Origin: Patescibacteria group bacterium AH-259-L05 | GTDB lineage: Bacteria > Patescibacteriota > Patescibacteriia > UBA2591 > UBA6264 | NCBI GenBank assembly: GCA_027717985.1 | Contig: JALLOO010000007.1 | Span: 1 to 35,632 of the forward strand | Reading direction: 5' to 3' | DNA length: 35,632 nucleotides | In this document: piece by piece, positions 25,182 to 35,080 of the stretch | How positions within the stretch are numbered: the stretch's first letter is position 1 | How the letters are laid out: every line of letters starts with the position of its first letter | Position numbers and translations under genes: made by a program | The notes under the pieces: generated by a model | Seen by the model: only the letters and a program-made list of their open reading frames with translations | What the model was told of the DNA's origin: nothing | Databases searched by the model: none

Positions 25182-26187
25182 TGTAATATAACTAATATGG
25201 AACAGTGGTAAGCGATTTTTTGGCTAACTTAAGCAGTAAATTAGCATCTTGCATTGAGGAAATAAACTGTGGAAAAGTTTTCCATAAATGCACCTGTTTT
25301 TGCTTCAATGGCATGATTGCTACACGTAAGTACGAAACAGGGCTTTGAAACCATTCAGGATAGGAAAAGCGAAAGGTAAACTCTGTAATCAGGTCAGGCG
25401 CTTTCTCAGGGGTGACATGGTGATACATTCGCCGGACAAAGGTGGTATAGTTACCCCACAACCCTTCGATTTCAGACGTTAAGGTAAATTCCCAACGATT
25501 ATGACGTTCATACGAATGATTCACCGGCCACCAGTTGCTGATCTTACGGTAGATTGCGGCACCATCAGAAAATAGAGTGCTGCCTGGAACCACATAGTTC
25601 GACAGAAAATCAATTGCCGTTTTTCGGTCAACTGACTTTTCAGGGATATGTTTTAATACAACCTTTCGTGTGCCGATTTGTTTTGCCCCGACAATTGCAT
25701 ATTTCTTGTTTTTTGAACCTCGGTACGCCTCATCGATTTGCACCACACCTGAGAGCCGTGTCGCGTCTAATGCATGCTCGGGTAAGTGGGTACGGAACTT
25801 CTCATACCATCGTCTCACCGTTACCAACGAGACGCCGGCCACCTTGTGTGCCTGATCAACCGGCACTTTGTTGCACCAGCACCATACCAATAACCAAAAG
25901 GTTTGTAAAGAAAGTTTCATACCGCGCAACCAGGTGACTGACGTAAAAGAAAAGGGTTTACGACATCGCTTGCACCGATACCGCTTGCCATACTTTTTAA
26001 TGGCTTTGCCCTGGCAAAAAGGGCAAAAGAGTTGTTTGCCAAACAAAATGCGTTTTAATTCCGTTCTGATCTTGCACTCAGACGGAATTTGGCGTAAGAT
26101 AGACATAGGAACATGGTTAAGATTAGTTAAAGACTTTTTTGACCTTTAATTTCTATCTTACCATGTTCCATTTTGTTTACTATACCC
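25182..26187 (-). mobile_element. IS1595-family insertion sequence
   Basis: About 1.0 kb with one transposase gene. Subterminal inverted words ATGGAACAGTGGTAAG (25196-25211) and its partner CTTACCATGTTCCAT lie at the two sides; the right tip reads GGGTATAGTAAACAAA on the minus strand, the left tip is diverged. The flanks carry an 8-bp duplication AAAGGAGA (25174-25181, 26188-26195) within a longer 11-bp match; 8 bp is the usual target duplication of this family. Confidence 0.85.
25192..26106 (-). CDS. IS1595-family transposase
   Basis: 304 residues, full length. N-terminal zinc ribbon (Cys28, Cys31, Cys45, Cys48: CPFC and CKRC), helix-turn-helix (AHKVAGVSLVTVRRWYEKFR) and an ISXO2-like RNase-H-type catalytic domain with Asp125 (VQIDEAYRG), Asp181 (LFSDGAAIY) and an acidic residue near SEIEGLWGN (Glu214). 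The gene looks intact. It is read in the same direction as its neighbours. Confidence 0.93.
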   Translation of the reverse strand: MSILRQIPSECKIRTELKRILFGKQLFCPFCQGKAIKKYGKRYRCKRCRKPFSFTSVTWLRGMKLSLQTFWLLVWCWCNKVPVDQAHKVAGVSLVTVRRWYEKFRTHLPEHALDATRLSGVVQIDEAYRGSKNKKYAIVGAKQIGTRKVVLKHIPEKSVDRKTAIDFLSNYVVPGSTLFSDGAAIYRKISNWWPVNHSYERHNRWEFTLTSEIEGLWGNYTTFVRRMYHHVTPEKAPDLITEFTFRFSYPEWFQSPVSYLRVAIMPLKQKQVHLWKTFPQFISSMQDANLLLKLAKKSLTTVPY

Positions 26188-32077: not shown

Positions 32078-32110
32078 AAAGAACTCCTGAAATCAGGAGT
32101 CTCTTTTTTG
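32076..32110. terminator. Bidirectional terminator between the 31853 gene and the purA-like gene
   Basis: Stem ACTCCTG/CAGGAGT (32083-32089, 32094-32100) with TCTTTTTT on plus and TCTTTTTA on minus. Confidence 0.85.
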
Positions 32111-32117
32111 TACTAAT

Positions 32118-33224
32118 TTACCAGCAACGCATTTGGCGAAGTCGGGTTCTCCGATGCCAATCAAAATCAACTGTTGTCTGGGGTCCTGTCTGAACTAGAG
32201 TCACCTCAGCGCCTTCGCTGTATTTGTCAACTGTGTCTAAAAAATCCTCAATAGGGCCGGTAGTCTTTTCTTTTTCATGAATAGACCAATCAAGATAATC
32301 AGCAAAGGTTATGGCAATCTCATCAGGTCGGTTAACCTGACATGCTTCTTGAAATCCTTCTCGACTAAACGTCGCCACCCTTCTCACTTTTTTCGTCACG
32401 CTCGTTTTTTCAACAATTGGTACGTCGCTTTGAGCAATCTTTGTTACGTCGTTCCACGTAATCTCATCGGAGTCTTTATCAAATGGTCCACTATTTCCTG
32501 CAACTCTAATCGGAAAGACCCGCGCTACCCCAATTACTTGAACATTGAATCGATTCATGCTCAAGCCCGCATCAGTAGCAAGTGCGGTTGCCGTAACGTT
32601 TCTGCTGGTCACATAGGGAAAGGTGCCAAAATCAATACTTATACCATACCCTTGTGTTCCTTCAAGAATCACAATTTCATCTCGCTCAACATACGAATTA
32701 ATCATATCAACCGTATCAGCACAATACTTTTTTAGCTGATCAACATCTCTTGCTTGAACACATGATGACTTTCTTAAAATCTTATCCGCCGCAGCGACTC
32801 CAATTCCCTCACCGCTGGTAGCAGACGTGCTCCCAATTCGTACCGCTAAATCAGTATTTTGTTCTGCTCTCACGTGCTCGTTCGTAATCACATGAGCGTT
32901 ATGATCAATAAACAGTCTGTCTTTAATCCGTGAGAACTGGCTTACTGATCTCAATTCTTTCAAGAGTATATCCAGATTTATAAGAGCGCCTCTGCCAATC
33001 ACGAGCTTGGCATATGGGTTGATCCATACACAGGGAATTTGTCTCATCACAAATTTCCTGCCTTTATAATAAATCGTATGCCCTGCATTGGGCGCCCCGG
33101 TTCGAATACCAACACTTGCACATGGAGATAGATAACTCACAATCGCGCCCTTTCCTTCTGATCCATATTGTAATCCTACTACTGCAATTACTCTGCCGTA
33201 ACCATCTTTATCAGGGTTATACAT
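32118..33224 (-). CDS. Adenylosuccinate-synthetase-family enzyme, PurZ-like at the catalytic site
   Basis: 368 residues, short like archaeal PurA and phage PurZ (bacterial PurA is ~430). PurA joins IMP and aspartate with GTP; PurZ uses dGMP on the way to 2-aminoadenine. Seen: VVGLQYGSEGKGAIVSYL, where PurA has WGDEGKG; Ser22 replaces the catalytic Asp (Asp13 in E. coli) while Lys25 and the His of PNAGHT (His49) remain. Also ILEGTQGYGISIDFGTFPYV with TSRNVTA (Gln191 and the IMP-loop region). The GTP-site TKLDVLD is TFADYLD here. From memory phiVC8 PurZ reads QFGSTGKG. Own promoter and good Shine-Dalgarno (AAAGGAGG). No other Z-genome gene (datZ, mazZ) is visible. It may also be a divergent PurA. 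Confidence 0.85.
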   Translation of the reverse strand: MYNPDKDGYGRVIAVVGLQYGSEGKGAIVSYLSPCASVGIRTGAPNAGHTIYYKGRKFVMRQIPCVWINPYAKLVIGRGALINLDILLKELRSVSQFSRIKDRLFIDHNAHVITNEHVRAEQNTDLAVRIGSTSATSGEGIGVAAADKILRKSSCVQARDVDQLKKYCADTVDMINSYVERDEIVILEGTQGYGISIDFGTFPYVTSRNVTATALATDAGLSMNRFNVQVIGVARVFPIRVAGNSGPFDKDSDEITWNDVTKIAQSDVPIVEKTSVTKKVRRVATFSREGFQEACQVNRPDEIAITFADYLDWSIHEKEKTTGPIEDFLDTVDKYSEGAEVTLVQTGPQTTVDFDWHRRTRLRQMRCW

Positions 33225-33263
33225 ACCTTCTTCCTCCTTTGAAAATAGCTTTATTTTATGTTA

Positions 33264-33292
33264 ACTATATCAAAAAAATCAAAAAATGTCAA
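33264..33292 (-). promoter_or_regulatory. Promoter of the purA-like gene
   Basis: -35 TTGACA (33287-33292), 17-bp spacer, -10 TATAGT (33264-33269). The region 33293-33440 upstream shows no gene. Confidence 0.8.
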
Positions 33293-34810: not shown

Positions 34811-35080
34811 GGCCGCGGAATGACAGGAGAGGGCCGCGGAATGACAGGAGAGGGCCGCGGAATGACAGGAGAGGGCCGCGGAATGACAGGAGAGGGCCGC
34901 GGAATGACAGGAGAGGGCCGCGGAATGACAGGAGAGGGCCGCGGAATGACAGGAGAGGGCCGCGGAATGACAGGAGAGGGCCGCGGAATGACAGGAGAGG
35001 GCCGCGGAATGACAGGAGAGGGCCGCGGAATGACAGGAGAGGGCCGCGGAATGACAGGAGAGGGCCGCGGAATGACAAAA
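34811..35080. repeat. 21-bp minisatellite, 12 perfect copies and a partial one
   Basis: The unit is GGCCGCGGAATGACAGGAGA+G, repeated without change from 34811; the thirteenth copy is cut at AATGACA and runs into an A-rich stretch. Because 21 is seven codons, two open frames (GMTGEGR on plus, LLSFRGP on minus) run through it; they are not genes. Confidence 0.97.

Follow-up and report, generated by a model that had tools for sequence, protein, structure and literature searches.

2-Aminoadenine (Z) is an unusual DNA letter made by some viruses, and the PurZ enzyme is known from phages. The question raised here is what a PurZ-type gene does in a bacterium. The gene lies in a 35,632-nucleotide stretch of DNA from Patescibacteria group bacterium AH-259-L05 (contig JALLOO010000007.1), which is called the window throughout; its source is a tiny, probably host-dependent organism. 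A sequence-only reading of the window had noticed a homologue of adenylosuccinate synthetase (PurA) with the serine of PurZ at the catalytic position, and had offered three explanations: salvage of a Z-type nucleotide, a captured phage gene, or a PurA with a new substrate.

The purZ-like gene and its chromosomal setting

The gene encodes 368 residues, a length that fits the short class of archaeal PurA and PurZ as had been proposed, and its product scores 181 bits against PF00709 (Pfam Adenylsucc_synt). Its strand has to be corrected to minus; the plus strand at 32118–33224 is riddled with stops. The gene and its flanking signals are as follows.

33264–33292, minus strand: promoter-like site TTGACA-17-TATAGT with TG before the second hexamer (an 11/12 consensus match only)
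33233–33240, minus strand: ribosome-binding site AAAGGAGG, 8 nt before the ATG
32118–33224, minus strand: purZ-like gene, 368 aa, ATG at 33224 and stop at 32118
32082–32101, minus strand: terminator-like hairpin followed by a T run, 16 nt past the stop

Promoter-like sites were no commoner in real than in shuffled sequence, so the promoter is suggestive only. Together with the ribosome-binding site and the hairpin, it suggestively brackets the purZ-like gene as a single transcription unit. A PADLOC search with the protein gave no match.

The source genome is 1.03 Mb in 63 contigs and 77.5% complete. The annotated genes of the window are housekeeping or ordinary ones (murB, corA, cysS, yjeF, tmk, rplA, nusG, gyrB, a uvrD-type helicase-nuclease gene, fic and tatD), which agrees with the earlier remark that datZ, mazZ and dpoZ are not seen nearby, and the contig is chromosomal in character. 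The window also contains a perfect 21-bp tandem repeat of 12.7 copies (GGCCGCGGAATGACAGGAGAG; 34811–35077) between the fic-like gene and tatD, and an IS1595-type transposase gene at 25192–26106.

Relatives and selection

The purZ-like protein alone, used as the query against genome_contigs and viral_contigs, found nothing. With an alignment of Ser-type proteins as the query, 318 loci were found among the 84,980 species genomes of genome_contigs and 379 in viral_contigs, and the best 80 of each were examined. Nearest among the best 80 of the 318 were five Patescibacterial genes of about 49–66% identity, namely those of Lloydbacteria (58%), Jorgensenbacteria (57%), Paceibacterota (51%) and two more (about 65–66% and 50%). 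The about 65–66% identical orthologue belongs to a genome of the same family (G002), also reads GSEGKG, and adjoins hrcA and grpE. The next-nearest sequences (best 80 of each set) were phage contigs (up to 43–44%), followed by Aenigmarchaeota and Nanoarchaeota (about 40%).

The other orthologues, whose neighbours were read by eye from translations, adjoin an adenylate-kinase-like gene and map, mur genes and ruvA, ftsA/ftsZ, or an rRNA methylase-like gene. These differing housekeeping neighbours indicate that the gene moved or was inserted independently, and never among recognisable phage genes. A prophage is ruled out by the housekeeping genes around both the purZ-like gene and its orthologues. 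Pairs of orthologues gave pN of 0.22–0.35 with pS saturated, indicating that the protein is maintained by purifying selection.

These data bear on whether the gene was recently captured from a phage, has no function in the cell and is on its way to loss. Such a course would suit the phage contigs that are its sister sequences, as well as its patchy occurrence, since only the source genome and G002 carry it among about 480 Patescibacterial genomes searched. It is nevertheless very improbable, because six genomes hold an intact copy, even at 49% identity, with synonymous divergence saturated and non-synonymous divergence low, the gene comes with a promoter-like site, a ribosome-binding site and a terminator of its own, and it sits beside housekeeping genes such as ftsA/ftsZ, mur genes and hrcA/grpE.

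Active-site residues and diagnostic insertions

The residues that carry the assignment are encoded at the following positions.

33147–33164, minus strand: codons 21–26, GSEGKG, with Ser22 at the position that the catalytic Asp occupies in PurA
32799–32834, minus strand: codons 131–142, GSTSATSGEGIG, four-residue insertion seen in the alignment
32481–32516, minus strand: codons 237–248, FPIRVAGNSGPF, PurZ-clade insertion after Val241 (PurA has RVG-AGPF)
32373–32405, minus strand: codons 274–284, TSVTKKVRRVA, aspartate loop, with Lys279 at the position of the Arg of PurA that contacts the 2'-OH (E. coli Arg303)
32298–32309, minus strand: codons 306–309, TFAD, NTP-base site, with Asp309 as in GTP-using PurA and PurZ0, and Phe307 as in PurZ

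The replacement of GDEGKG by GSEGKG had been read correctly at residues 21–26 of the PurA homologue, as had the retention of Lys25 and His49 and the presence of Phe307 at the lysine position of TKxD, Asp309 being retained. Ser22 is no sequencing accident, since all five Patescibacterial orthologues have Ser; chance and a frame error are ruled out likewise. The four-residue insertion (GSTSxxxxEGIG) was found, among the rows compared, only in the purZ-like protein, its five orthologues and two phage contigs, L159 and L163. The segment RVAGNSGPF shows the PurZ-type insertion past the conserved Val. Shared by the purZ-like protein, PurZ and PurZ0 are the Ser, a Thr in the aspartate loop, the PIRV-x-G-x-SG insertion and a Lys in place of the 2'-OH-sensing Arg.

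When the residues of the dGMP pocket of S-2L PurZ (PMC8342488) were mapped onto the protein, nearly all were retained (Y20, G21, S22, N46, A47, H49, S132, T133, R151, Q191, Y204, T206, R240, V241, T274, R281 and F307). S23, T273 and Q308 are described as PurZ-unique residues that touch the substrate (PMC8342488), and at their equivalents the protein has Ser22, Thr274 and Asp309, the state of 4/4 PurZ0 rows (S, T, D); in long PurA and in P. horikoshii PurA the residues are D, G, D. In the alignment, Lys279 falls opposite phiVC8 Lys267, which has been equated with the E. coli Arg303 that contacts the ribose 2'-OH (PMC8342488). Position 279 is, though, variable across the six Patescibacterial proteins (K, K, K, R, S, T), which speaks against strict ribose selection rather than for selection of deoxyribose.

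Phylogenetic position and comparison with PurA

A tree was constructed for 55 proteins comprising Ser-type sequences, Asp-type short PurA (P. horikoshii and CPR forms) and long PurA. All Ser-type sequences formed one clade (100/99) separate from both kinds of Asp-type PurA. Within it, the six Patescibacterial proteins formed a clade (100/98) whose sister was the pair of phage contigs L159 and L163 (100/99), and the purZ-like protein lay with these on a branch of its own, outside the monophyletic phage PurZ0 branch. The same groups stood (99/97, 99/96 and 99/99) in a second tree from which the columns of Ser22, the 131–142 loop, the insertion, the aspartate loop and the NTP site had been taken out, and one D/S change was enough. 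The 368-residue protein is hence a member of the PurZ clade and not a PurA: it does not fall well inside cellular PurA, and Ser at this position was not found in proven PurA enzymes. Support was weak for the deeper branching that relates the PurZ, PurZ0, archaeal and operon types to one another, and the tree therefore does not fix whether the gene passed from phage to cell or from cell to phage.

The fold and the family models are less telling. The AlphaFold model (pLDDT 94.2, pTM 0.92) gave TM scores of 0.84/0.92 with P. horikoshii PurA, 0.85/0.85 with PurZ0 and 0.79/0.84 with phiVC8 PurZ; the fold does not discriminate among the three. The NCBIfam PurZ model NF038379 gave 235 bits, below its curated cut-off of 300, which is one model's naming threshold and not a biochemical feature. 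The two sister phage enzymes (245 and 219) were also under it, and Wayne scored 367 and phiVC8 397. Both PurA models were under their cut-offs as well (PRK04293, 260 against 368; TIGR00184, 193 against 396), the archaeal PRK04293 slightly outscoring the PurZ model (260 vs 235). PRK04293 gave a Ser-type operon enzyme 350 bits, just under its cut-off, and plasmid records label Ser-type proteins "adenylosuccinate synthetase". The trait has probably been overlooked because standard annotation gives such genes this name.

An ordinary archaeal-type PurA, which the HMM and fold scores alone would permit, is ruled out by the tree, the insertion and the loop. The short archaeal PurA of P. horikoshii (PDB 5K7X) resembles the purZ-like protein in its fold, length class, 34% identity and GTP-site Asp, but its catalytic Asp is present, its PTRVGAGPFPTE lacks the insertion, and its VTGRRRR includes the Arg that contacts the 2'-OH. 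It can further be asked whether the protein is the cell's own adenylosuccinate synthetase, which would convert IMP into succino-AMP despite its Ser. It is the sole PF00709 protein in each of the six carrier genomes; the canonical purA that was to be looked for was not found, there being no other PF00709 gene in the 77.5%-complete source genome. The top NCBIfam score and the equally near fold of PurA also favor this role. We regard it as improbable, since the Asp is indispensable to PurA, where its conservation is 99% (PMC12884076), and the protein lies outside PurA in the tree and has the PurZ-type loop and insertion. Moreover, only 22 of 97 genomes (the source and its relatives) have any PF00709 gene, the other 75 being without purA, and purB was not found in most carriers.

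Comparison with PurZ0, PurZ and the sister phage contigs

Work of Tong et al. in 2023 is said to have found that PurZ0 uses GTP. PurZ uses ATP according to the introduction of PMC12884076; one sentence of that paper gives the preferred nucleotides of PurZ0 and PurZ as ATP and GTP "respectively", contradicting its own introduction, and the assignment adopted here is ATP for PurZ and GTP for PurZ0. The GTP-type 2-aminoadenylosuccinate synthetase PurZ0 (actinophages Wayne, Ghobes and Archimedes; PDB 7VF6) shares with the purZ-like protein the Ser for Asp, the aspartate-loop Thr, the PIRVAGNSGP insertion, the VT-x-K-VRR loop and the NTP-base-site Asp. It differs in sequence (31–37% identity), tree branch and NF038379 score, and the purZ-like gene lies in a bacterial chromosome and stands alone, with no DutZ, DmtZ, DpoZ or DUF5664 nearby. 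The ATP-type PurZ (phages phiVC8, S-2L and SH-Ab 15497; PDB 6FM1 and 7ODX) shares the Ser, the stacking Phe, the KKVRR loop (as in phiVC8) and the dGMP-pocket residues; unlike the purZ-like protein, it has Asn or Gln at the Asp309 position of the NTP site, which is of GTP type here, GSTGKG instead of GSEGKG, and a DatZ/MazZ cluster.

The partner genes of the sister phage contigs were also compared. L163 encodes a family A polymerase (PolA) whose best matches are Wayne (36%) and Cicada (33%), with SH-Ab 15497 matching weakly. Its synthetase gene is followed by a 167-aa gene and then directly by a DUF4406-dUTPase fusion, whose dUTPase portion shares 60% identity with the Cicada dUTPase across 45 aa and also matches the NDT-Dut protein of Wayne. 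L159 has an NDT-like gene weakly matching the NDT part of the Wayne fusion protein. PurZ0 phages have dutZ in all cases and dmtZ in most, usually fused, plus a DpoZ-1 polymerase (PMC12884076). By these matches, L163 carries a PurZ0-type Z set consisting of a DpoZ-1-like PolA and a DmtZ-DutZ-like fusion, and since the partner genes of both contigs match PurZ0-phage sets, the closest non-cellular relatives of the purZ-like gene look like Z-phages. The claimed likeness to PurZ is thus borne out by the phylogeny, the common insertions and pocket residues, and the Z-type genes that one sister phage contig carries. The suggestion of a captured phage gene is plausible because the sister sequences are phage contigs, while capture in the reverse direction, by a phage from a cell, is also possible.

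Pathway partners in the carrier genomes

In phages, the host adenylosuccinate lyase converts dSMP into dZMP. No lyase was detected by TIGR00928 in the source genome and six relatives, nor by ADSL_C and Lyase_1 in 5/6 carriers, all of which are incomplete or of completeness not known. The Jorgensenbacteria carrier has a contig-edge fragment that matches PurB (98 bits), and PurB was not found in the source genome (G000) and G002, which are 75–78% complete. The lyase is likely to be truly absent from some carriers. No YfbR-like HD protein (the kin of DatZ), DmtZ-DutZ fusion or DpoZ-1-like polymerase was found in G000 and G002. The proposed genome-wide search for datZ and mazZ thus gave no datZ-like gene but a 104-aa MazG-like gene, which is not counted as mazZ because such genes are common. 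Small MazG-like NTP pyrophosphohydrolase genes are present in 3/6 carriers (G000:C45:5406–5627, i.e., L249; L250; L251), and their products could supply dGMP.

Ser-type enzymes in other cells

The Ser change had been associated with phages and this genome, but it is the mark of a large enzyme family with both cellular and viral members. Cells of many kinds carry Ser-type enzymes, and Ser at the catalytic position is common in cellular genomes within the PurZ clade rather than in proven PurA. The only cellular PurZ relatives mentioned in the literature found are four archaeal sequences with Ser or Gly, placed basal to PurZ (PMC12884076), which the purZ-like protein resembles as a cellular member of the PurZ group. 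Lone Ser-type synthetases were observed in Aenigmarchaeota, Nanoarchaeota and Woesearchaeota (L084–L089, L092 and L095); these DPANN sequences are 36–42% identical to the purZ-like protein. Lineages of ultra-small, host-dependent cells seem typically to carry the lone form.

Gene order was examined for 88 cellular loci, that is, the best 80 of the 318 and 8 plasmid loci. A first operon type, at 37/88 loci, places an RNase_H_2 exonuclease-like protein before the synthetase and/or a dCTP-deaminase/dUTPase-like protein after it, the latter often followed by a deoxynucleoside kinase. Its order is a ~690-aa RNase_H_2/DEDD-like protein, the Ser-type synthetase, the dCTP deaminase/dUTPase-like protein and the kinase, and it occurs in many bacterial and archaeal phyla (L097–L156; e.g., L140:5894–10644 and L117:5845–10641). 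From its gene content, it looks like a cellular Z-nucleotide or defence operon. A second type, at 26/88 loci, has a DUF7002 gene behind the synthetase, which is typically a kinase-synthetase fusion of ~545 aa, and often a CapP/IrrE-like protein with a macro-like domain in front (L100:5794–9670, L126:6063–9703, L037/L038/L040/L076–L078). Rhizobial plasmid copies have an HD deoxynucleotide phosphatase in the cluster, with Gabija, AAA or HNH and other defence-type genes adjoining. The remaining 25/88 loci, including all Patescibacterial and most DPANN ones, are of neither type. Both operons are defence-like in character, and no description of either was found in the literature searched.

Asp-type forms came to light as well. 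L039 (R. leguminosarum plasmid pRL23b2) has an Asp-type short PurA clustered with folE, purB, queE, IMP dehydrogenase, nitrile hydratase, queC, HAD and phosphoribosyltransferase genes, which resembles a 7-deazapurine nucleoside pathway. Divergent short Asp-type PurA in other Patescibacteria (L041–L044 and L023) read GDSGKG, GDGGKG, GDCGKG and GDTAKG, and form a second set of unusual PurA homologues.

These loci raise the idea that the protein belongs to a wider cellular family whose substrate is a different guanine nucleotide, such as GMP, or whose end product is a succino-nucleotide, for control of nucleotide pools or defence against phages, the phage Z enzymes being a specialised offshoot. 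It would account for the 318 loci with Ser-type enzymes, spread over many phyla of bacteria and archaea, for the two conserved operons with exonuclease-like, dCTP deaminase/dUTPase-like, kinase, and CapP-like regulator/macro-domain or DUF7002 genes at most loci examined, for the rhizobial copies adjoining Gabija and an HD deoxynucleotide phosphatase, and for the lyase not being found in most Patescibacterial carriers. However, the Patescibacterial copies stand alone and are nearest to phages with a Z-type set rather than to the operon types, and kinase and dUTPase-like partners equally fit dZTP synthesis. We consider this family-wide role rather unlikely.

Proposed function and significance

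The product of this chromosomal gene is probably a PurZ-clade 2-amino-(deoxy)adenylosuccinate synthetase whose nucleotide site is PurZ0-like and of GTP type. Judging from its residues, the enzyme would prefer dGMP and GTP and is predicted to catalyze dGMP + Asp + GTP → succino-2-amino-dAMP, with Ser22, in place of the catalytic Asp, leaving space for the 2-amino group of guanine. The closest ancestry of the purZ-like gene is with the enzymes of phages that have a PurZ0-type Z gene set, and scattered Patescibacteria have kept the gene as a lone transcription unit. Its product may serve to make dZTP, to alter DNA, to drain dGMP or to poison phage replication. Salvage of a Z nucleotide is not indicated, since the enzyme would produce a Z precursor; the notion of a PurA with a new substrate comes close if that substrate is dGMP or GMP.

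More tentatively, and with somewhat less than an even chance in our estimate, the synthesis of 2-aminoadenine nucleotides may be a cellular trait too, carried by lone PurZ-type enzymes in ultra-small Patescibacteria and DPANN archaea and, in many other bacteria and archaea, by operons that include kinases, dUTPase-like proteins and nucleases, where it possibly acts against phages by making or exploiting Z nucleotides. The finding suggests that Z chemistry extends beyond viruses. A chromosomal PurZ conserved in bacteria that are mostly devoid of purine biosynthesis allows the presence of Z or succino-purine nucleotides in cells to be put to the test, and a cell-encoded sister of the phage Z enzyme bears on how phages acquired Z-DNA.
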